From Bacteroidales bacterium (GTDB lineage: Bacteria > Bacteroidota > Bacteroidia > Bacteroidales > UBA3824), in NCBI GenBank assembly GCA_017394445.1, contig JAFPYT010000258.1:1-42401 (forward strand): a stretch of 42,401 nt of DNA. The letters run 5' to 3'. Below the pieces are notes generated by a model that did no database searches, had not been told where the DNA came from, and saw nothing but the letters and a program-made list of their open reading frames with translations. Every line of letters begins with the position of its first letter. The stretch's first letter is position 1. A program made the translations under genes and the position numbers. Shown here one piece after another: positions 208 through 42,193 of this stretch.

Positions 208-564
208 TTAATTTGCCTTGGCAATTAATTCGATGGCTTTGTCAACGGTATCGGTGATATTCAGCACAGTGTCAAGTTGCGAGATTGAAATCAATCTTTC
301 AACAGCTGTTTGCAATCCTGTGAGAACAAAAGTTCCGTTGGCGTTTTTGCACAGCCTGTTGGCAACTAATATCGCGCTCAACCCTGAACTATCGCAGTAA
401 CGGGCTTTTTGCAAGTCGATAATGATGTTTTTTTCTCCGTTGCCGGCAATCAAAACGAGTTCTGATTTTACAGCCGGTGCAATGTGAGTGTCCAACTTTT
501 CAACCAATATGCTTATTACTGTGTAATTGTCGAATTTGGTTACTTCAAACTTTTTTTCGTCCAT
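208..564 (-). CDS. STAS-domain anti-sigma factor antagonist-like protein
   Basis: A 118-residue single-domain STAS protein of the SpoIIAA/RsbV type. Such proteins bind an anti-sigma kinase or other target when unphosphorylated and are released when a serine is phosphorylated. The diagnostic loop ARYCDSSGLSAIL lies at about 54-66; Asp58, Ser59 and Ser60 correspond to the DSSG phosphorylation site of SpoIIAA. The length is normal for a free-standing STAS protein. It lies 47 bases downstream of rpsA on the same strand with no terminator between, so it is probably cotranscribed with S1. No dedicated RsbW-type kinase gene is adjacent. Several SpoIIE phosphatases, the usual dephosphorylating partners of STAS proteins, lie 14-23 kb away. 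A link to them is inferred. Confidence 0.9.
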   Translation of the reverse strand: MDEKKFEVTKFDNYTVISILVEKLDTHIAPAVKSELVLIAGNGEKNIIIDLQKARYCDSSGLSAILVANRLCKNANGTFVLTGLQTAVERLISISQLDTVLNITDTVDKAIELIAKAN

Positions 565-14918: not shown

Positions 14919-17168
14919 GTGCGTATTTTAAAAAACATATTAGTAGTATTGTTTACCACTGTATATCTGGGAGTTTCGGCTCAGAATGGAGATCAGAAAA
15001 ACACTTTGCTCGATAGTTTGGAAAACTTGCTGTCGACGGCGCAAGGTGATTCTGCCAAAATAGCAGTGTACAATTCTATTTACAATTATTTTGGCGATTT
15101 AGACGTTTCGATTCGTTATGCCCAAGAGTTTATGGAAAAAGCTATTAGGCTAAACGATACTGCTTTAATGATTAATTGCCAACTGTCGTCGGCATACGCT
15201 TATTTAAATAATAACCGATTTAAAGATGCTGAAAAACACTTAATTACAGTAGTCAATTTGGCAAATCAATCTAACAATAAGCAGGCATTGGCTAAGGCGT
15301 ATTATCTCTACTCGTTTTATTGCGAAGATGCCGACAATATTGCGGGCATGGTAGATTATGGCAACAAATCGCTCGAAATATATCGGCAACTGTGTGATAC
15401 TGTGCATATTTTGGATATATATATGATGTATGCCCAGTCGTGTGGTACTATGAATATGTTTAAAACCGCTTACGAATATCTTGTAAGGTCTATTTTGCTG
15501 AGCCACGTTTCGCAACATAGCACATATACAGCTGATGCCTTGGTGTTTTATGCCTCCACTATGTTGAGGCAATTCGACAACGTTTATTATTCGCCCGAAG
15601 TGCGTATTGGCAAATTTAAAAAGATTATAAATTATTGTAGCGCAGCCACTCGCGTCTACGATTCGGCAAAACGTAATACATATTTTGACCGACAAATGCT
15701 CTATCTTTCTCAAGTTACTAAAGCTCAGGCTTTTCTTAAATCTGCCGAAATCTTAAATTCAAAGCCTTTGGCAGATAGTTGTGCCGTTTATCTTAATAGA
15801 AACAAGAAAATTGATATTGATAATCAGACATTATTTTATCAAGGAGCATTGGTAGAGGGCGGATGGCTTATGTTTAATGGTCAATACCGCAAAGCTGTGG
15901 ATGTGCTTTTGAAAGTGGAGCAAACCGAAGTTTTGCACACTACGCATTTGCGCAAGCAGGCTTGTTCGTTGTTGTCGCAATGTTATTCAAAACTTGGCAA
16001 CTTGCCTAAAACATTGGAGTTTATCAACAAAGCCGGTTTTTACGAAAAACTTGACAATCGCGAAGCCGCGAGTAAACAATATGCTGACTTTAAAACCAAG
16101 ATGATTTCGCAAACACAAGTGGAATTAATTGAAACCGGCAAACGCAAAGACACCATTAAAAAAGAAGGTGAAATTAAGCGTCAAAATTATATCACTACAT
16201 TTCTTGTGTTGATTGTGCTGTTGGTTTTGGTGTTTGCTACATTGATTCTTAATACATTAAACAAGCGTCGCCGTACCAACTTGCAATTACGCCAAAAAAA
16301 CGACGAAATCACCAAACTCAACGGCAATATTATCAGTCAGAAAAAGGAGATTGCAAAACGTCGCGATACCATTACTATGCAGTTTGACATGGTGGAAAAT
16401 TTTAACGAAACCATTACGTCGAACATCAAGTATGCTGGCAAAATTCAACGTGCCGCCATTCCATCCGATAGCGATGTAAAACGCTTATTTAATGATAGTT
16501 TTGTGCTTTTCCGACCAAAAGATATTGTTAGCGGCGACTTTTACACCATCACCCAAAAAGGGGTTTTTAAAATATTTGTGGTGGCTGATTGCACAGGGCA
16601 CGGTGTTCCAGGAGGATTGCTTTCGATGCTTGGCATTTCGGCTCTGAATGATATTTTGCGTAATTTGCCCGATGATGATAGTTTTTCGCCAGCCAAGGTG
16701 CTCGACCGTATGCGCGACTTTATTATTAACGTGTTTGAAGGTAAAAGCGGTTTGGATATTTACGACGGCATGGATATGACAATCTGCGCTCTCGACACCC
16801 GCAACAATACATTGCATTTTGCTGCCGGCAACCAAAGCGTGTTTATCTATCATGATGGACAGCTCATCCGTTTAAAGGGCGACAAAATGCCTGTGGGACG
16901 ATATGTTAAGAATTTTGCACATTTTACCGATCAGATATTCAACCTTAATCATGGCGATATGGTGTATATGTTTTCTGACGGTATTCAGGATTTGCTCGGT
17001 GGTCCTTTGAATAAAAAATTGCTTATCAGAGGATTTGAAGCAATATTGGCAAAAATTGTAACTCAGACAGGACTTAGACAAAGAATAGAAATTGATACAG
17101 CAATAGACCTTTGGCGTGGTGATATGCCGCAAATCGACGACATCACCGTTGCCGGATTTAGAATTTGA
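14919..17168 (+). CDS. TPR sensor-SpoIIE/PP2C serine phosphatase (array member 1)
   Basis: A 749-residue membrane protein. A signal peptide (about 1-21, ending VSAQ) is followed by a helical TPR-like periplasmic region (about 25-400). A transmembrane segment lies at 424-447, a coiled coil at about 450-495, and a cytoplasmic SpoIIE-type PP2C domain at 505-749. The metal-binding set is complete: Asp540 in GDFY, Asp557 in ADCTGHGVPGG, DGMD at 616-619, Asp687 in SDGIQD and Asp740-Asp741. It should be an active Ser/Thr phosphatase, probably on a STAS or SiaC-type partner, with periplasmic input through the TPRs. It starts with GTG. The next gene begins 2 bases after its stop, so they are one operon. 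Confidence 0.92.
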   Translation: MRILKNILVVLFTTVYLGVSAQNGDQKNTLLDSLENLLSTAQGDSAKIAVYNSIYNYFGDLDVSIRYAQEFMEKAIRLNDTALMINCQLSSAYAYLNNNRFKDAEKHLITVVNLANQSNNKQALAKAYYLYSFYCEDADNIAGMVDYGNKSLEIYRQLCDTVHILDIYMMYAQSCGTMNMFKTAYEYLVRSILLSHVSQHSTYTADALVFYASTMLRQFDNVYYSPEVRIGKFKKIINYCSAATRVYDSAKRNTYFDRQMLYLSQVTKAQAFLKSAEILNSKPLADSCAVYLNRNKKIDIDNQTLFYQGALVEGGWLMFNGQYRKAVDVLLKVEQTEVLHTTHLRKQACSLLSQCYSKLGNLPKTLEFINKAGFYEKLDNREAASKQYADFKTKMISQTQVELIETGKRKDTIKKEGEIKRQNYITTFLVLIVLLVLVFATLILNTLNKRRRTNLQLRQKNDEITKLNGNIISQKKEIAKRRDTITMQFDMVENFNETITSNIKYAGKIQRAAIPSDSDVKRLFNDSFVLFRPKDIVSGDFYTITQKGVFKIFVVADCTGHGVPGGLLSMLGISALNDILRNLPDDDSFSPAKVLDRMRDFIINVFEGKSGLDIYDGMDMTICALDTRNNTLHFAAGNQSVFIYHDGQLIRLKGDKMPVGRYVKNFAHFTDQIFNLNHGDMVYMFSDGIQDLLGGPLNKKLLIRGFEAILAKIVTQTGLRQRIEIDTAIDLWRGDMPQIDDITVAGFRI

Positions 17169-17170
17169 TT

Positions 17171-19249
17171 ATGAGATATTTAATAACCATATTGATATTG
17201 TTGATGTGCGCTGCCGGTGTAGATGCTCAAACTGGTGCGGGCAAAATCAGTTTCGATGCCAATTATCAGGCTGCCTACCGCGATTATTACAGTGGTAATT
17301 TTGAAAGTGCTTACCGCCGCACACAAATTATGATTGAAGAGGCTAATCGCACAGGCGACCAACGGTATCTGGCTGCTGCTTACACATTTGCATCACTTTA
17401 TAGCGATCATACCGGGCGCGTTGACGAATCGCTCGAAAACCTTTATAAAGCCCTCAATATTTACAAAGAAATGGGCGATACGGTGCGCATTGCATCTACA
17501 TACCGCTACATTGGTGACGCTCTTGGCGAGCTTAGAATGTATCAAAATGCTACCGATTTATTTTACCGTTCGATAAAAATTGCTGGCGACTGTAACGACT
17601 TTTATGAAGAATCGCGGGGATATAACTCTCTGTGTAAATACACTTTGCGCGATTTAGAAACCGAATCTGATTCAACGTTTATCAGCAAAAAATTAAAAAA
17701 CGTTATCCAAAAGATGGAGTATTTTGGCAATGCAATTCTTGGCGACTCTATTGATCATTTGCACCGTCAAAATATCATCAATTGTTTTATGAATCTTGCT
17801 TCGGCTTATATTCTTAAAGCACGAATCGAAAACAACACCGTATATGCCGACAGCGCGCAAAAATATGTTGAGCGGATACGTAAAACTATGGGTTTTCAGG
17901 GTGTTACGCTTATGCGGTCGTATATTCTCGAAGCTGGTGTAATGATTGTGAAAAACAACGATCGTGATGCTTTATTTAGAATGAAAGAGATTGAAAAACT
18001 TACCTCTACGCTACCTCTTACACATTCTGACCTTGGCGATTTGTACAACAACCTTAGCATTGCATCGCAAAAACTTGGCAACCTTGCCGATGCTATTTTT
18101 TACAAACAAAAATCAATTGAGTATCAAAGTTATACTGTAAACGAATACAATGTTTTGGCTGGATTTGAATTTCAGGCAAAACTCATGTCGGACAACGAAA
18201 TTAGTATCCATCAACACGAAAAAGAACTTGTAGAATATGCCAACAACCAACGCCTGCTCAATGTTAGGTTGATATCATTTTGGGTGTTGATTGTTTTGCT
18301 TGTGCTTTTGGGTGCTTTGCCTGTTTTGTATTTGATTTTGCGCCACAACAAAACTCTCACCCGCAAACTCAATATTCTATACGGCAAACTCGAAAAACAC
18401 AACCGCAAACTGCTTGAACAGCAAAACGAATTGGCTGCTCAAAACGAAATGATTCAGCAGCAACGCGACAATGTTGACCGTATCAACAAAGAAATAATGT
18501 CGAGCATCACATACGCACAACGTATTCAAACTGCAGCTTATTCGCGCGATGAAGATATCCCGTCGGTTTTTCCAAGCTCGTTTCGCTTGATACGTTCCGA
18601 TTCGCTTGTATCGGGTTGTTTCCATCTTACCTATCAATACGCAGGTGTAAAGGTGCTTGCTGCTGCTACATGTTCGCGCAATGGAGTGCCGGGCAGCTTT
18701 TTTGCCATGCTTGGAGTGGCTACTCTTAAAGAGGTGCTTGTGCATTATCATCCCGAGGGATTGTTTTCGCCTGCCGACATACTTACTAATACCGAGTTTA
18801 ATCTTAATCAGACTCTAAGCAATATTAAAGGAACTGAATTAAAAGAAACTATTGATATTTCGATAGTTGCATTTGATACCGACAACAAAAAATTGATTTT
18901 TTCTACTGCAAATCAGTCGTTATACTTATTTGATGGCATTAATGTGAAGGGGTATTTTGGTAGTAAATTTAGTCTCGGCTACACTATCAATAATGTTTAC
19001 AACGATCAAACGCTAAATATTACTAACGGCACTATGATATACATTATTAATAATGGCATTCGTCAGCAAGTAGGAGTTAACGACGAATTGTTTGGCGATC
19101 AGCAAATTAGCTTAATGATTAAAACAGCCGGGAACTTACCTTGTTCGCAACAACAAAACGCCATCAATGAGTTTATCAACGAATGGCTTGGCGACAATAA
19201 TCAAGTTGGCGATATTGCTATTATTGGTGTCAGAAATACCTTTTGGTAA
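17171..19249 (+). CDS. TPR-SpoIIE-like pseudophosphatase (array member 2)
   Basis: A 692-residue paralogue of the preceding protein with the same layout: signal peptide (ending GVDAQ), TPR-like periplasmic region, transmembrane segment at about 370-392, coiled coil and SpoIIE-like domain from about 440. The catalytic residues are replaced: GDFY is GCFH (Cys483), ADCTGHG is ATCSRNG (Thr500), DGMD begins with Glu559, SDGIQD is NNGIRQ (Asn628), and of the final Asp pair only the second remains. The frame is intact and the fold-forming segments (NGVPGSFFAMLG, STANQSLYLFDG) persist. This points to a folded, non-catalytic protein under selection rather than decay. It could titrate substrate or regulate its neighbours. 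The start is ATG 17171. Confidence 0.9.
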   Translation: MRYLITILILLMCAAGVDAQTGAGKISFDANYQAAYRDYYSGNFESAYRRTQIMIEEANRTGDQRYLAAAYTFASLYSDHTGRVDESLENLYKALNIYKEMGDTVRIASTYRYIGDALGELRMYQNATDLFYRSIKIAGDCNDFYEESRGYNSLCKYTLRDLETESDSTFISKKLKNVIQKMEYFGNAILGDSIDHLHRQNIINCFMNLASAYILKARIENNTVYADSAQKYVERIRKTMGFQGVTLMRSYILEAGVMIVKNNDRDALFRMKEIEKLTSTLPLTHSDLGDLYNNLSIASQKLGNLADAIFYKQKSIEYQSYTVNEYNVLAGFEFQAKLMSDNEISIHQHEKELVEYANNQRLLNVRLISFWVLIVLLVLLGALPVLYLILRHNKTLTRKLNILYGKLEKHNRKLLEQQNELAAQNEMIQQQRDNVDRINKEIMSSITYAQRIQTAAYSRDEDIPSVFPSSFRLIRSDSLVSGCFHLTYQYAGVKVLAAATCSRNGVPGSFFAMLGVATLKEVLVHYHPEGLFSPADILTNTEFNLNQTLSNIKGTELKETIDISIVAFDTDNKKLIFSTANQSLYLFDGINVKGYFGSKFSLGYTINNVYNDQTLNITNGTMIYIINNGIRQQVGVNDELFGDQQISLMIKTAGNLPCSQQQNAINEFINEWLGDNNQVGDIAIIGVRNTFW

Positions 19250-19300
19250 GATTTTTGCTAATTATTAAACAAAAAATATAGTATATAACACATTATTTAT

Positions 19301-20302
19301 ATGACTTTAACTATACTAACTATACCGTTTGTTATCATAATAGCTTTGATTGCTATTGTGGCAATTGTATTATTGGTAATATTTTTAAATGGCAAAAAAT
19401 ACAAAGAAGAATGTATAGTTTTGCAAAAAGATGTTTCAAATCAAGAACAGCAACTGGCTGAATATCAAAATCTTTATTCGCAAAAACAAGAACAGCTCTC
19501 CAAAATATCTCAAGAATACGAGTCTGCCTCCAACGACCTTAAAGCAAGTATCCATTATGCCGAACGTATTCAACGTGCGGTAATTCCTCACGAAGAAGAG
19601 TTTAAAGCATTGTTTCCCGATTGTTTTATTTATTTTAGTCCTCGCGACATTGTTAGTGGCGATTTTTATACTTGCGCATCGTCGCCATATTTCAGAATAG
19701 CTGTTGTGGCAGATTGTACAGGGCACGGCGTTCCGGGAGGATTCCTTTCGATGCTTGGAATGTCGGCTCTAAAAGACCTTTTGTCGAAGCAAAATATTAC
19801 CAAAGATTTTAATCCTGGTGAGATACTCAACTCGCTAAGAACCTTTATTTTAACTTCGCTTGCCGAAGCTTCTGAAACCGATGAGGCAACTGTGAGTGAT
19901 GGTATGGATATTTCGCTTTGTGCTTTTAGCGACGATTTTACGCAGATACGCTACGCCACAGCGAATCACACTATTTATTTATGCCGCAATGGCGAAATCG
20001 AAAAACTCAAGGGCAACCGTATGCCTATTGGCCGTCATCCTAAACAAGACAATCCGTTTGAATCCTTTACTGTCAACCTTCAAAAAGGCGATATTGTTTA
20101 CCTTTGTAGCGATGGCATTCAAGACCAATTTGGAAGTCCCGCCGACATTAAATTTACCACCAAACGCCTTGCTGCCATGCTTTTAGAGCATAGTCACGAA
20201 GATACACAAACCCAACTTGCCGATATATCTAAAATAGTAAACGATTGGAAAGAAGGACATGATCAATTTGACGACCAAACATTAATTGGAATTAGAATTT
20301 AA
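19301..20302 (+). CDS. Membrane-anchored SpoIIE/PP2C phosphatase (array member 3)
   Basis: A 333-residue protein without TPRs: one N-terminal transmembrane helix (about 7-29), a coiled coil (about 35-80), then a SpoIIE domain preceded by the family's ASIHYAERIQRAVIP signature. Catalytic residues are complete: Asp121 (GDFY), Asp138 (ADCTGHGVPGG), Asp200 (SDGMD), Asp271 (SDGIQD) and Asp324-Asp325. It is predicted to be an active inner-membrane phosphatase facing the cytoplasm. The ATG at 19301 lies 51 bases after the pseudophosphatase stop, with no terminator between them. It lacks a sensor domain, so it may be constitutive or controlled through its coiled coil by a partner. Confidence 0.92.
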   Translation: MTLTILTIPFVIIIALIAIVAIVLLVIFLNGKKYKEECIVLQKDVSNQEQQLAEYQNLYSQKQEQLSKISQEYESASNDLKASIHYAERIQRAVIPHEEEFKALFPDCFIYFSPRDIVSGDFYTCASSPYFRIAVVADCTGHGVPGGFLSMLGMSALKDLLSKQNITKDFNPGEILNSLRTFILTSLAEASETDEATVSDGMDISLCAFSDDFTQIRYATANHTIYLCRNGEIEKLKGNRMPIGRHPKQDNPFESFTVNLQKGDIVYLCSDGIQDQFGSPADIKFTTKRLAAMLLEHSHEDTQTQLADISKIVNDWKEGHDQFDDQTLIGIRI

Positions 20303-20306
20303 CATT

Positions 20307-21218
20307 ATGAATATATTCGAATACCGCAAACAAGCCGCCAAGTTGAAGGCTGCTCGCGACGCTAATGCCAAGCGCATTGCCGAGTTGCAAAATCAACTTG
20401 CAGCCGCCGACGTTACCATTCAAAAAGAATCGGAACGTTGCGCCAAAGCCATTCACGAAAACACTTCGAGCATCCGTTACGCCAAACGCATACAAAGTGC
20501 GGCGTTTTCGCAAAAAGAAATTAGCGGTATTTTCTCTGATTACTTTATATTTACCAAACCTCACACTATTGTTACGGGCGATTTTTACAAAGCTGCCGAA
20601 ATAGAGCATTACAAAATTTTTGCTCTTGCCGACTGCTCTGGTCATGGCGTTCCTGGAGGTTTTCTCTCAATGCTTGGATTATCGGCATTAAAAGAATCGC
20701 TTGCAAAACATTTTTACGACGATAATATCGACCTTGCCGCTATCCTCGACGAATTACGTGAATTTGTAAAATCTTCGCTCCGCAGCGACAACGACAATCC
20801 CGATAATATCAGCGATGGTATGAACCTAACTCTCTGTGCGTTTGAGATTAAAGGTGGAGGAGTACGGTTTGCAGGAGCCAACCAAAATGTTTACCTCTAT
20901 TCTGATGGCAAACTCACCACTTATAATGGCGACCGTATGCCGATAGGATGGTCGTTTAAAGGTGATAGTCCTTTTTCTGAAACTTATATTCCTGTAAAAA
21001 AGGGAGATATGCTGTATCTCACCACCGATAGTTTGCAAAATCAGTTTGGCGGGCCCGACAACTCAAAATTTTCAACCAAACGCCTTGTTTCGATGTTTGA
21101 ACAAATTGGTTCAATGTCTACCGCCGAGCAAAAAGATACCGTGGCAGATATTGTAAACAAATGGGTAGAAGGCACGGTTCAAATCGATGACCTAACAGTG
21201 GCAGGAGTAAGGGTGTAA
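20307..21218 (+). CDS. Cytoplasmic SpoIIE/PP2C phosphatase with altered motif (array member 4)
   Basis: A 303-residue soluble protein: an N-terminal coiled coil (about 7-50, Ala/Lys/Gln-rich) followed directly by a SpoIIE domain. GDFY (Asp92), ADCSGHGVPGG (Asp109), SDG and the closing IDD are kept. DGMD is DGMN and SDGIQD is TDSLQN, so the aspartate of that motif remains but the glycine and last Asp do not. Activity is likely but may be changed. There is no membrane segment. I chose ATG 20307, 4 bases past the upstream stop; a TTG at 20286 lies inside the previous gene. The gene ends only 3 bases from the stop of the convergent fifth member. Confidence 0.88.
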   Translation: MNIFEYRKQAAKLKAARDANAKRIAELQNQLAAADVTIQKESERCAKAIHENTSSIRYAKRIQSAAFSQKEISGIFSDYFIFTKPHTIVTGDFYKAAEIEHYKIFALADCSGHGVPGGFLSMLGLSALKESLAKHFYDDNIDLAAILDELREFVKSSLRSDNDNPDNISDGMNLTLCAFEIKGGGVRFAGANQNVYLYSDGKLTTYNGDRMPIGWSFKGDSPFSETYIPVKKGDMLYLTTDSLQNQFGGPDNSKFSTKRLVSMFEQIGSMSTAEQKDTVADIVNKWVEGTVQIDDLTVAGVRV

Positions 21219-21221
21219 TTG

Positions 21222-23453
21222 CTACAAAATTCTTATACCGGCTAATGTCATGTCGTCTACCTGAATGGTGTTTTGCATCCAATCGTGCATAATGGTTTCA
21301 AAAGTTTCTTTTTGTTTTTCCACTGGAGAAGAGGCGTTTTCGGCAAAGAATTGCAACAGACGTTTGGTCATAAATTTAGTGCCCGATAGTCCGCCCATTT
21401 GCCCTTGGATACCGTCGGTCATTAAATAAAGCATATCGCCTTGTTTGAGCGTTTGCGAAATAGTGGTAAATGCACCGTCCTCTTTGATGTGCCGTCCTAT
21501 GGGCATGCGGTCGCCTTTCAATCGCGAAATTATGCCGTTGCTCCATACGTATGCGCTGTGGTAAGCTCCTGCATAACGCACTTCGCGAGTTTTTAAATTT
21601 ACGGCGCACACCGACATATCCATACCATCGGCGGTAGAAAACGTTTCGTCGCCCGATTCATCAATTTCGCTGTCGCCCGAGAAAGCCTCTTTAATAAAAT
21701 CTCTCATGCTGTCTAATATAGCACCTGGCATTACATTGTCGATAGGTCGGCTAAGAATTTCTTTTATGGCAGAAATGCCAAACATCGAAAGGAATCCGCC
21801 GGGCACGCCGTGTCCTGTGCAGTCGGCTATTACAATAATGCTAAAATTGCCACATCGCGTAACGTAGTAAAAATCACCGCTGACAATATCCTTGGGCATA
21901 TAACTTAAGAACGATTCGGGGAAAAGCATCTTAATATCTTCGGCATCGGGCAAAGCCATTCTTTGTATATGTCGGGCATAGCGAATGCTTTGGAGTATTG
22001 TAGAATTGTAGCGTTCTACCTTTTCTTTTTGCGATGTAATGATGCCTTGTTGTTGAATAATTTCTTCTTGTTTTTGGAGCAGGATTTGGTTCTTGGTTTT
22101 TAAAAGCTTGTTGATTCGGCGTTTGCGTACAACCGAAATGCATACCACAATTATGGCAAAAATACTTACACCCAAGGCTATAATAGCAAGAATAAGTTTG
22201 CTTTGTTTGTCGCTTACGCTTGTAGATAGTTCTTCGTTTTTGCGTTTTAGCAGTTTTTCGGCAGAATCAAATTCGTCCAACCGTTCGCTCAGCAACCTTT
22301 CCGACACTTGCGCGAGTTTGGTTTCTTCGGTTGTGAAATTCTGAAACTTGTTGAGAGTAGTTTGCCATTGAAAAGCCTCTTTGTAATGTCCGAGTTGAAA
22401 ATGCGAGTGCGACAGCAGGTCGTAAAGGTGTTCTTTGAGATATTTTGATGTAAAGGAAGATATTTTGTAATTGTTGGCAGCTTCAAGAGCCTTGGCATAG
22501 TTTTTTTGTGCAAACAACAGCCAGGCATGGCACAATTCCACTTCTGACAGCTGCACCGAATCTCCTGTAGAAGTGTACCATTTATCAGCCAAGTTAAGGT
22601 ATTTTTGTGCGCTGTCGGAGTTTTTTTTGTAATAACGGTCGTCGGCCATCGCAAGCAGTATGTAAGCCTTGCAACGTTCTAAATACGATTCGTTTAGCGC
22701 GGTCATACAGTCAAAATTGGTGCATTTGTTTTCGTAAATAATGCGGTCGATAGAATCGCAAGCCGACAAAGTGCGGTGCAAAATCCGTCGAAGACTATCG
22801 TGATGCTGCGATTCGGCTTTAAAAGTGTTCATCTGGGCGTACGAGATAAATGCGGTCAGTTTGTCGAGCGGATCATTAGAGGTTTGGCATATCTGATTCA
22901 TTTCGTCGCAGTATTTTTCGGCAATGATAAACATTTTGGCATTGGTGCAGATGTGGCAGAGCTGCCTATAAGCCCAAATTTCCCAAGCTTTGTTGTTTAT
23001 CTGCTTAAACATGTCGATGGCCAGCCTGATGTTTGCCATGGCCTCGGGTATTTCGTTGAGAGCCTCGAGAATGGTGCCGATATTGAGTGTTATAGTGGCC
23101 AATAGCATCGAGTCGTTGTTGTAACGCGCCATGGAAAGGGCGTGCTGATATAGTTGCAACGAATGTTGCCAATTGCCTTCGGTTGAAGCTGCGTATGCCA
23201 GATTGGATGTGGCTACTGCTTTGATGTCCATATTGTTGCCGCAATAATCTATGGAAAGATTAGAGTATTTTTTTAGAGTGTCAGAATTGGTTTCTTCGGC
23301 GGCTAATTTCCCGTATAATTTGGCGATAGTAATCGAATCAGTCTCTTTTGAAATCAGGTTGAGAATACTGTCGCGAAATGTTTGAGCGTGGGTATAAAGT
23401 CCTGATGCTAAAAATAATAAACAAATTGCGATATGTAATAGTTTGATTTTCAT
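21222..23453 (-). CDS. TPR sensor-SpoIIE/PP2C serine phosphatase (array member 5)
   Basis: A 743-residue protein with the same plan as member 1: signal peptide (MKIKLLHIAICLLFLASG... ending THAQ), TPR-like periplasmic region, transmembrane segment at about 415-437, coiled coil and SpoIIE domain. The catalytic set is complete: VSGDFYYV, IADCTGHGVPGGFLSM, ADGMDMS, TDGIQG and VDDMT. It is on the opposite strand from members 1-4. The ATG abuts the stop of the DUF4112 gene (TAAATG), so the two are an operon and their products may work together. A TPR motif is visible near EGNWQHSLQLYQHALSMA. It is probably a periplasmic-sensing serine phosphatase; the substrate is unknown. Confidence 0.92.
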   Translation of the reverse strand: MKIKLLHIAICLLFLASGLYTHAQTFRDSILNLISKETDSITIAKLYGKLAAEETNSDTLKKYSNLSIDYCGNNMDIKAVATSNLAYAASTEGNWQHSLQLYQHALSMARYNNDSMLLATITLNIGTILEALNEIPEAMANIRLAIDMFKQINNKAWEIWAYRQLCHICTNAKMFIIAEKYCDEMNQICQTSNDPLDKLTAFISYAQMNTFKAESQHHDSLRRILHRTLSACDSIDRIIYENKCTNFDCMTALNESYLERCKAYILLAMADDRYYKKNSDSAQKYLNLADKWYTSTGDSVQLSEVELCHAWLLFAQKNYAKALEAANNYKISSFTSKYLKEHLYDLLSHSHFQLGHYKEAFQWQTTLNKFQNFTTEETKLAQVSERLLSERLDEFDSAEKLLKRKNEELSTSVSDKQSKLILAIIALGVSIFAIIVVCISVVRKRRINKLLKTKNQILLQKQEEIIQQQGIITSQKEKVERYNSTILQSIRYARHIQRMALPDAEDIKMLFPESFLSYMPKDIVSGDFYYVTRCGNFSIIVIADCTGHGVPGGFLSMFGISAIKEILSRPIDNVMPGAILDSMRDFIKEAFSGDSEIDESGDETFSTADGMDMSVCAVNLKTREVRYAGAYHSAYVWSNGIISRLKGDRMPIGRHIKEDGAFTTISQTLKQGDMLYLMTDGIQGQMGGLSGTKFMTKRLLQFFAENASSPVEKQKETFETIMHDWMQNTIQVDDMTLAGIRIL

Positions 23454-40560: not shown

Positions 40561-40944
40561 CTACGACTCAAGAACTCTCAACTCTATTGGAAAATTGATT
40601 GTGTATTGGAGGTCTTCTCCGTTTTCTTGCGAAGATTCATCCCCATCTTCGTAATACCAAATGATTTTAAGTGTGTTAGGTTCTTTTACGTTTTTTAAAA
40701 TCGACATAAGTTCAAGAACACAACGCAATGTAGCTGAGTTGTAGTATTCAAAGTTGAACACGAGTTCGGTATGCTCTTTAGGCGAAGCCGTGTATTATTC
40801 TAACCAAGAAAAAACCGGTGAGTAGAAAGCATCGCTATCTTCGGGCATAGAGCGTCCTGAAATCATTAATTTACCTTCGTCGGGCTCGAATACGATTCTC
40901 GGCGTAGTGCTTGTGGCTTCGATATATAGTTTCTGCATCTGCAT
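40561..40944 (-). pseudogene. siaC: SiaC family (DUF1987) regulatory phosphoprotein gene with in-frame stop
   Basis: Reading from ATG 40944 gives a full-length DUF1987 protein of about 127 codons, interrupted by TAA at 40795-40797 (codon 50). Before it lie QKLYIEATSTTPRIVFEPDEG read in part, and SGRSMPEDSDAFYSPVF. After it come YTASPKEHTELVFNFEYYN, SATLRCVLELMSILKNV, and IIWYYEDGDESSQENGED. The frame is otherwise clean on both sides, and a single base change (GAA to TAA) would explain the stop. The phosphorylatable Ser/Thr of the family (NSAT, about codon 69-72) lies past the stop. A -7 box precedes it. It lies directly downstream of a SiaB-family gene, its expected kinase. This could be a recent nonsense mutation, a sequencing error, or a restart at GTG 40761. 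Confidence 0.85.
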
Positions 40945-41044: not shown

Positions 41045-42127
41045 TTAAATGTTACATTCAATTGTTACTAAAGTATTTTCGTTGTCAAATTGACATCTAA
41101 TACCGTTTTTGCTTTCGCGGGCAATGTCGATAAGACCAAGTCCCGACGTAATATCAAGATTGTCGTGTCCATTGCGCAACACTTTTTTGTAATAGGCGTC
41201 AAGTTGTTCGGGTGTTTGTGCATTAAGATGGTCGATATAATCTTTTAAGCGGGTTGTGTATTTTGGGTCTATGTTGTTAGATGCTGTAATGGTGTATTTT
41301 GATTGATGTTTGCCGAGCGAAAATAATCCATCGTGGCTACCTGTATTTGCCGACGAAGCGTGTTTTGAAATGTTTTGGATCATTTCTACCATAATGTGAT
41401 ATACTTTTCGTTGGGTGGTAAGCTCAGAATCAAGTTCGGCAATGTTGTTTTCTGACATTATAAGTATTTGGTTTACAGTGTTTCGGTCAAAATCGCCTTT
41501 TACCGCCAAAAACTTATGATGCTGTTCCATAAGGTTTTTGAGATATTCGGTGCGGTCTACTGGCAAAGGTTCTGTATTGTCTTCGCTGATTTTGAGCCGC
41601 AATTGAAAATAGAAAAACGCGCGATTGTTGTCAACGGGAACAAATTTATAATCGAGTTTTTCTTTGGTTTTGCGTATCATTTCTACAAAACCGAGACCTG
41701 CGCCGCCTTCTTTTGACAATTGTTTGTTGGTGAGGGTTTCAACAAAAACTTGTTTTAATTCTTCGTTGGTCATAGTGTTAACGCGGTTGAGCTTGTTTTC
41801 AAGGATTTCAACCTTGGCATTATCGATAAAATTGCCCGAAGTTATGTAGTAGCTATTGCCTATGCGGCGAACAACAAATATTTCTCCTGAGGTTTCGTCA
41901 TCGTTTCTGCCCGAAAGACCGTAGCGGAGAATGTTTTGAAAGCTTTCGATCATCAAAAACGATAGCTTATTTTTTTGACCTTCGGTGTCGGAACTTTTAC
42001 CTAAATATCCTTTCCAAAGCTCAGTTACCATACCCAAAACTGTATTGTCGAATTTACCTAAGTATATGAAACTCAGATTGTCGTCTTTGAGTTCGTGGTA
42101 CAATGCATTGTTAATATTACTTTCCAT
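41045..42127 (-). CDS. siaB: Tandem SiaB-family (DUF6272) protein kinase-like protein
   Basis: A 360-residue protein made of two SiaB-like GHKL-fold domains. Domain 1 (about 8-178) has an N-box-like FLMIESFQNILRYG (Glu61, Asn65) and a Gly motif GAGLG at 142-146. Domain 2 (about 200-360) repeats the plan with IMVEMIQNISKHA (Glu248, Asn252) and SGLGLIDIA at 318-326. Single-domain SiaB in Pseudomonas phosphorylates SiaC, antagonised by the PP2C phosphatase SiaA. Here the siaC-family gene is immediately downstream, 100 bases away. The start is ATG 42127; a TTG at 42154 is an in-frame alternative. Family members of about 180 residues are usual, so the double domain is an internal fusion or duplication. 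Confidence 0.88.
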   Translation of the reverse strand: MESNINNALYHELKDDNLSFIYLGKFDNTVLGMVTELWKGYLGKSSDTEGQKNKLSFLMIESFQNILRYGLSGRNDDETSGEIFVVRRIGNSYYITSGNFIDNAKVEILENKLNRVNTMTNEELKQVFVETLTNKQLSKEGGAGLGFVEMIRKTKEKLDYKFVPVDNNRAFFYFQLRLKISEDNTEPLPVDRTEYLKNLMEQHHKFLAVKGDFDRNTVNQILIMSENNIAELDSELTTQRKVYHIMVEMIQNISKHASSANTGSHDGLFSLGKHQSKYTITASNNIDPKYTTRLKDYIDHLNAQTPEQLDAYYKKVLRNGHDNLDITSGLGLIDIARESKNGIRCQFDNENTLVTIECNI

Positions 42128-42193
42128 AATTAAGTTTATAATGTCTGACAACAAAAAAATCTAATTTCAGGCTATAAAAATAAAAAATCTATC

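Follow-up and report, generated by a model that had tools for sequence, protein, structure and literature searches.

The nearest solved structure to the proteins described here is that of SiaA from Pseudomonas aeruginosa (6K4E), an active Mg/Mn phosphatase combining a linker helix with a PPM fold. Its metal site comprises D457, D474, G477, D600, D604, D534 and D653, and N-terminal helices mediate the dimerisation of SiaA-PP2C (PMC7647112). SpoIIE and RsbU from Bacillus subtilis, PPM proteins with a dimerisation- or linker-controlled switch, are switched by dimerisation and, in the case of RsbU, also by linker coiled coils (PMC5468089, PMC12143880). In SpoIIE, RsbU and SiaA the dimer interface involves N-terminal helices, and dimerisation shifts the switch helices by which the metal site is completed (PMC5468089, PMC12143880, PMC7647112); SpoIIE and RsbU also have substrate-docking loops (PMC11418112). 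The PPM switch has been proposed to outlive catalysis in pseudoenzymes, with RssB of Escherichia coli as an example (PMC5468089): RssB is a PPM-fold pseudophosphatase that keeps the linker and switch for a non-catalytic role (PMC5468089, PMC12143880). TAB1 has been named a pseudo-PP2C (PMC5468089), and PHLPP2 is presented as a PPM fold without phosphatase activity (PMC12002173). Pseudo-PPM proteins—RssB, TAB1 and PHLPP2—are already known, and TAB1 and PHLPP2 resemble the protein reported below, whose inactivity is predicted, in having a PPM fold without phosphatase activity. Both are eukaryotic, and their domain architecture differs from that of the protein reported here. Neither is known to have an active paralogue encoded next to it.

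The window (the whole stretch of DNA analysed, 42,401 nucleotides) is one of the 388 contigs that make up a fragmented Bacteroidales genome of 3.9 Mb. It carries a head-to-tail array of four SpoIIE-domain genes (14919-21218) and a convergent fifth gene of this kind at 21222-23453 (Table 1). The second gene, member 2, extends on the plus strand from an ATG at 17171 to a TAA at 19249, encodes 692 amino acids and begins after a gap of 2 nt from the stop of member 1. Members 1 and 2 share one plan—putative signal peptide, TPR-type N-terminal part, TM helix, long helical linker and C-terminal PPM domain—the signal peptide and single TM helix of member 2 being called by hydropathy alone. The TPR_12 match in member 2 scores 36.5 against a Pfam cut-off of 30.1, and the Pfam SpoIIE profile reaches 19.6 bits, below the cut-off of 25, a shortfall that a degenerate copy would be expected to show; the cut-off of the NCBIfam SiaA equivalog NF038263 is not reached either (104.6 of 700 bits), the C-terminal part alone matching. 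RssB possesses a receiver domain, is truncated at its C-terminus and serves as a ClpXP adaptor, whereas member 2 has no receiver domain N-terminal to its PPM domain, a membrane-anchored TPR sensor being found there instead, and belongs to an operon-like array that also encodes active paralogues; its PPM domain is full-length, the last strand being present in the AlphaFold2 model. SpoIIE and RsbU differ from member 2 in being active enzymes with other sensory parts. From SiaA, member 2 is set apart by its TPR-type N-terminal part and by the missing equivalents of D457, D474, D600, D604 and D653, described below.

Table 1. Features of the SpoIIE array and of its surroundings in the window
Feature	Position	Strand	Basis
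Member 1: signal peptide, TPRs, one TM helix, linker, SiaA/SpoIIE-type PPM, all metal Asp	14919..17168	+	ORF list, Pfam, alignment, hydropathy
Member 2, predicted pseudophosphatase	17171..19249	+	ORF list, motif alignment, orthologue comparison
Putative signal peptide of member 2, MRYLITILILLMCAAGVDA	17171..17227	+	sequence, hydropathy
TPR_12 match in member 2, residues 68-138	17372..17584	+	Pfam profile
Single TM helix of member 2, residues 372-390	18284..18340	+	hydropathy
Coiled-coil linker of member 2, omega 0.035	18341..18487	+	model, codon and column conservation
Alpha-1 dimer/switch helix region of member 2, conservation equal to member 1	18488..18571	+	model, column conservation
Lost metal ligand 1 of member 2: SGCFHL (active SGDFYT; SiaA D457)	18611..18628	+	alignment
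Lost metal ligand 2 of member 2: ATCSRNG (active ADCTGHG; SiaA D474/G477)	18665..18685	+	alignment
Lost metal ligand 3 of member 2: INNGIRQ (active FSDGIQD; SiaA D600/D604)	19046..19066	+	alignment
Lost metal ligand 4 of member 2: QVGDIA (active QIDDIT; SiaA D653)	19202..19219	+	alignment
Member 3: TM + linker + PPM, all ligands present	19301..20302	+	ORF list, Pfam, alignment, hydropathy
Member 4: PPM domain without TM, M1/M2 ligands kept	20286..21218	+	ORF list, Pfam, tree, alignment
Member 5: convergent TPR/TM/PPM protein	21222..23453	-	ORF list, Pfam, tree
Stand-alone STAS protein, candidate substrate class	208..564	-	profile match
SiaC-family gene with in-frame TAA mid-gene, beside SiaB-like gene	40579..40944	-	profile match, reading
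Tandem SiaB-like protein, two DUF6272 domains	41045..42154	-	profile match

When member 2 is aligned by sequence with SiaA-PP2C and the active members, the positions of SiaA D457, D474, G477, D600, D604, D534 and D653 are taken by C, T, R, N, Q, D and G, respectively. All four catalytic aspartate positions are thereby replaced (C/T/N/G), and of the whole set only the D534 equivalent, an M3-shell aspartate, is left. The sequence-only reading, which had described a 692-codon open frame with signal peptide (here seen by hydropathy only), TPRs and SpoIIE fold segments, and had held that most metal ligands were lost, is upheld on each of these points and was, if anything, too cautious on the last: the motif changes are as it gave them, and a fourth motif absent from its list has changed from IDDIT to VGDIA. 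Member 2 is predicted to lack phosphatase activity. The linker and PPM part was modelled with AlphaFold2 at a pLDDT of 90.2 (member 2) and 90.7 (member 1). The two models agree in their elements and in the order of these, and SiaA-PP2C is the best match of both (member 2 to 6K4E: Z 31.9, 1.7 Å, 244 residues, 26% identity; member 1: Z 33.4, 1.8 Å, 243 residues). The alpha-beta-beta-alpha fold of the PPM family is present in the member 2 model without an intact metal site, and the domain is predicted to be well folded; since the alignment used by the predictor included active paralogues, the family in part dictated this result.

Of the 18 genomes in the genus, 7 (counting that of the window) have an orthologue of member 2, invariably between members 1 and 3 and without stop codons. 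The order m1-m2-m3-m4 is identical in all seven, and the gap between members 1 and 2 is 2 nt in six, the pair in G009 lacking the 2-nt ATG spacing. Identity to the window's member 2 is 95% in G017 (where the gene is split across two contigs with a 15-base overlap), 61-63% in G003, G005, G012 and G015, and 29% in G009. The presence of a syntenic, stop-free gene in seven genomes indicates that member 2 is no product of chance or of a sequencing slip. The remaining genomes of the genus gave no match at E 1e-70; in five of them the uvrB region was inspected and the array found to be absent there, as it is from the uvrB region of G009, where a different contig carries the array. Phylogenetic analysis places the PPM domain of member 2 among SpoIIE domains, unites all seven orthologues in one clade (support 99) and makes this clade the sister of member 4 (support 91), not of member 1. 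All seven orthologues lack the three core M1/M2 ligands (D1-D3), which members 1, 3, 4 and 5 retain. The sequence-only reading had assumed a simultaneous loss of the metal site. This does not hold: the most divergent orthologue, in G009, retains the D4 motif QIDDIT and has lost D1-D3 (GHFY, ANCSENG, PTNS), and ligand loss in member 2 was therefore stepwise.

The further assumption of that reading, that the pseudoenzyme is kept by selection, agrees with the ratio of non-synonymous to synonymous substitution (dN/dS, omega) as estimated by pairwise codon likelihood for three close orthologue pairs. Whole-gene omega is 0.101, 0.125 and 0.093 for member 2 and 0.104, 0.123 and 0.098 for member 1; for the SpoIIE domain the respective values are 0.119, 0.180 and 0.159, and 0.097, 0.110 and 0.089. 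An omega of 1 is rejected in each of the three pairs, with 2dlnL of 45-89 for the dead domain of member 2. As judged from these sequence comparisons, member 2 is a conserved, selected pseudophosphatase.

Within the array, members 1 and 3 carry the whole ligand set in seven orthologues. In member 4, Asn stands at the equivalents of D534 and D604, the M3-shell residues that support the third metal in SiaA, in each of the seven orthologues, and catalysis may be altered in this sister lineage of member 2. The D604 equivalent of member 5 is Gly (TDGIQG) in 6/6 orthologues compared, and the lineage most like member 5 also adjoins uvrB in array-less members of the genus. In a genome census of ~45 SpoIIE ORFs, only member 2 had lost all ligands. 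A partly degenerate PPM gene at C191 (5261-6124; L118:5096-6199) has lost GHG and two ligands (D2 and D4, both to Asn), keeps GDFY and TDG, and adjoins two apparently active SpoIIE genes. As in the SiaA system, SiaC and SiaB families are represented in this genome: there are 16 SiaC hits and 16 DUF6272 hits, but only two STAS hits over the cut-off, one of the latter being the stand-alone protein in Table 1 and the other lying inside a 556-aa frame. The ~45 SpoIIE, 16 SiaC and 16 DUF6272 matches in 3.9 Mb constitute, at the level of profile hits, a large SiaABC-like signalling expansion. The interrupted SiaC-family gene in the window is either a pseudogene or an assembly error, and the tandem DUF6272 layout found beside it is seen at four or more further sites in the genome.

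The distribution of constraint along member 2 bears on its role. Regional omega, computed with one set of times shared by all regions, is 0.035 for the linker, 0.087 for the half from alpha-1 to alpha-2, 0.090 for the TPR and TM part, and 0.182 for the C-terminal half; because the C-terminal half of member 1 is also less constrained than its switch half (0.119 vs 0.039), this gradient is partly general. Linker omega is 0.065 in member 1 and 0.26-0.30 in members 3 and 4. The fraction of invariant columns in members 2 and 1, respectively, is 0.63 and 0.62 in the linker, 0.64 and 0.61 in alpha-1, and 0.16 and 0.32 in the C-terminal helices. With constraint strongest on the linker and weakest in the C-terminal half that holds most of the docking loops, a dimerising, signal-transmitting pseudoenzyme is favoured over a substrate trap. 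We give about an even chance to the reading that member 2 is a metal-free transmembrane PPM protein acting through its dimer/switch face, with active member 1 as its simplest partner. The periplasmic TPR domain would sense a signal, which the TM helix and the coiled-coil linker would pass to the folded, metal-free PPM domain; this domain would act through its alpha-1/alpha-2 dimer/switch face and not by hydrolysis. In a mixed dimer of members 1 and 2, with one catalytic and one dead subunit, the latter would set the switch, and hence the metal affinity, of live member 1, so that the removal of phosphate from a SiaC- or STAS-type substrate would come under a second sensory input; the SiaC proteins and the stand-alone STAS protein are candidates for this substrate. 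We infer the dimerisation of member 2, its partner, the direction of its effect and its substrate. Two features make member 1 the simplest partner: its gene ends 2 nt ahead of member 2 in six of the seven genomes, and its linker is the only other strongly constrained one among members 1-4. Gene coupling and the constraint on both linkers also make an allosteric partner of member 1 the best fit among the roles that the sequence-only reading had proposed. Since the PPM domain of member 2 is sister to that of member 4, the partner might instead be member 4 or a second copy of member 2.

Self-pairing is central to the alternative that survives best, in which member 2 would be a homodimeric, RssB-like adaptor whose switch binds a partner outside the array, member 1 not being regulated. 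RssB provides the precedent of a PPM-fold adaptor using linker and switch; the linker and switch half are kept in member 2, and the closest paralogue of member 1 is not member 2. The strict synteny with member 1 in all seven genomes, with its 2-nt gap in six, speaks against it, and we regard the adaptor as unlikely, though not far-fetched. More improbable is a substrate trap or decoy, as suggested by the sequence-only reading, in which the dead domain would hold the phosphorylated SiaC or STAS substrate of the active members. The fold is kept, SiaC is abundant in the genome, and the Arg that replaces Gly in the D2 loop of six orthologues could contact phosphate. A trap would be expected to keep its docking loops and phosphate site, and the constraint pattern therefore discriminates against it: member 2 has no ligands for the metals with which PPM enzymes hold phosphate, and the invariant fraction in most docking-loop parts is low (0.10 vs 0.80 in member 1 for the alpha3-beta4 loop, 0.21 vs 0.36 for the flap), the switch loop alone (0.56) being as conserved as in member 1. 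Slightly less credible still is the view that member 2 serves through its TPR sensor and membrane anchor alone, with the dead domain a leftover in slow decay. The SpoIIE-domain omega of member 2, at 1.2-1.8 times that of member 1, and the value of 0.18 in the C-terminal half would agree with this; the rejection of neutrality for the domain in three pairs, the near invariance of ATCSRNGVPGSF.AMLG in six orthologues and the lack of truncated orthologues do not. Metal-independent chemistry newly evolved at the old active site, which the invariance of the ligand 2 loop ATCSRNG in six orthologues might recall, is highly improbable and was rejected, since the D1 position varies among C, H and S in the orthologues, unlike a catalytic residue. 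A decaying pseudogene or assembly artefact, conceivable in a fragmented assembly of 388 contigs, was rejected as next to impossible in view of seven stop-free genomes and an omega of ~0.1.

A limited literature search found no paper on a SpoIIE-type pseudophosphatase in Bacteroidota, nor the combination of a full-length dead PPM domain, a membrane TPR sensor and a coupled active paralogue. A search of 393 Bacteroidales genomes for the degenerate loop C..NGVPG gave in-frame SpoIIE matches in this genus only, the others being due to chance, and no GHGVPG site whose D2 codon begins with a base other than G turned up in 148 genomes; both patterns are narrow and may have missed other pseudo-SpoIIE proteins. 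In a bolder form, which we consider less likely than not, members 1 and 2 would constitute an obligate asymmetric transmembrane phosphatase dimer, with a live and a dead subunit bearing different sensor domains, in which a bacterial PPM enzyme is gated allosterically by a pseudophosphatase; member 4 would perhaps represent a half-way state in the same lineage. Member 2 offers a natural case for the idea that the PPM switch can outlive catalysis (PMC5468089): a predicted dead, full-length PPM domain with a strongly selected linker and switch half, beside active paralogues. The array as a whole reads as a graded series, in which members 1 and 3 are complete, members 5 and 4 have an altered M3 shell and member 2 appears dead, with the G009 orthologue as an intermediate that retains one of the four aspartates.
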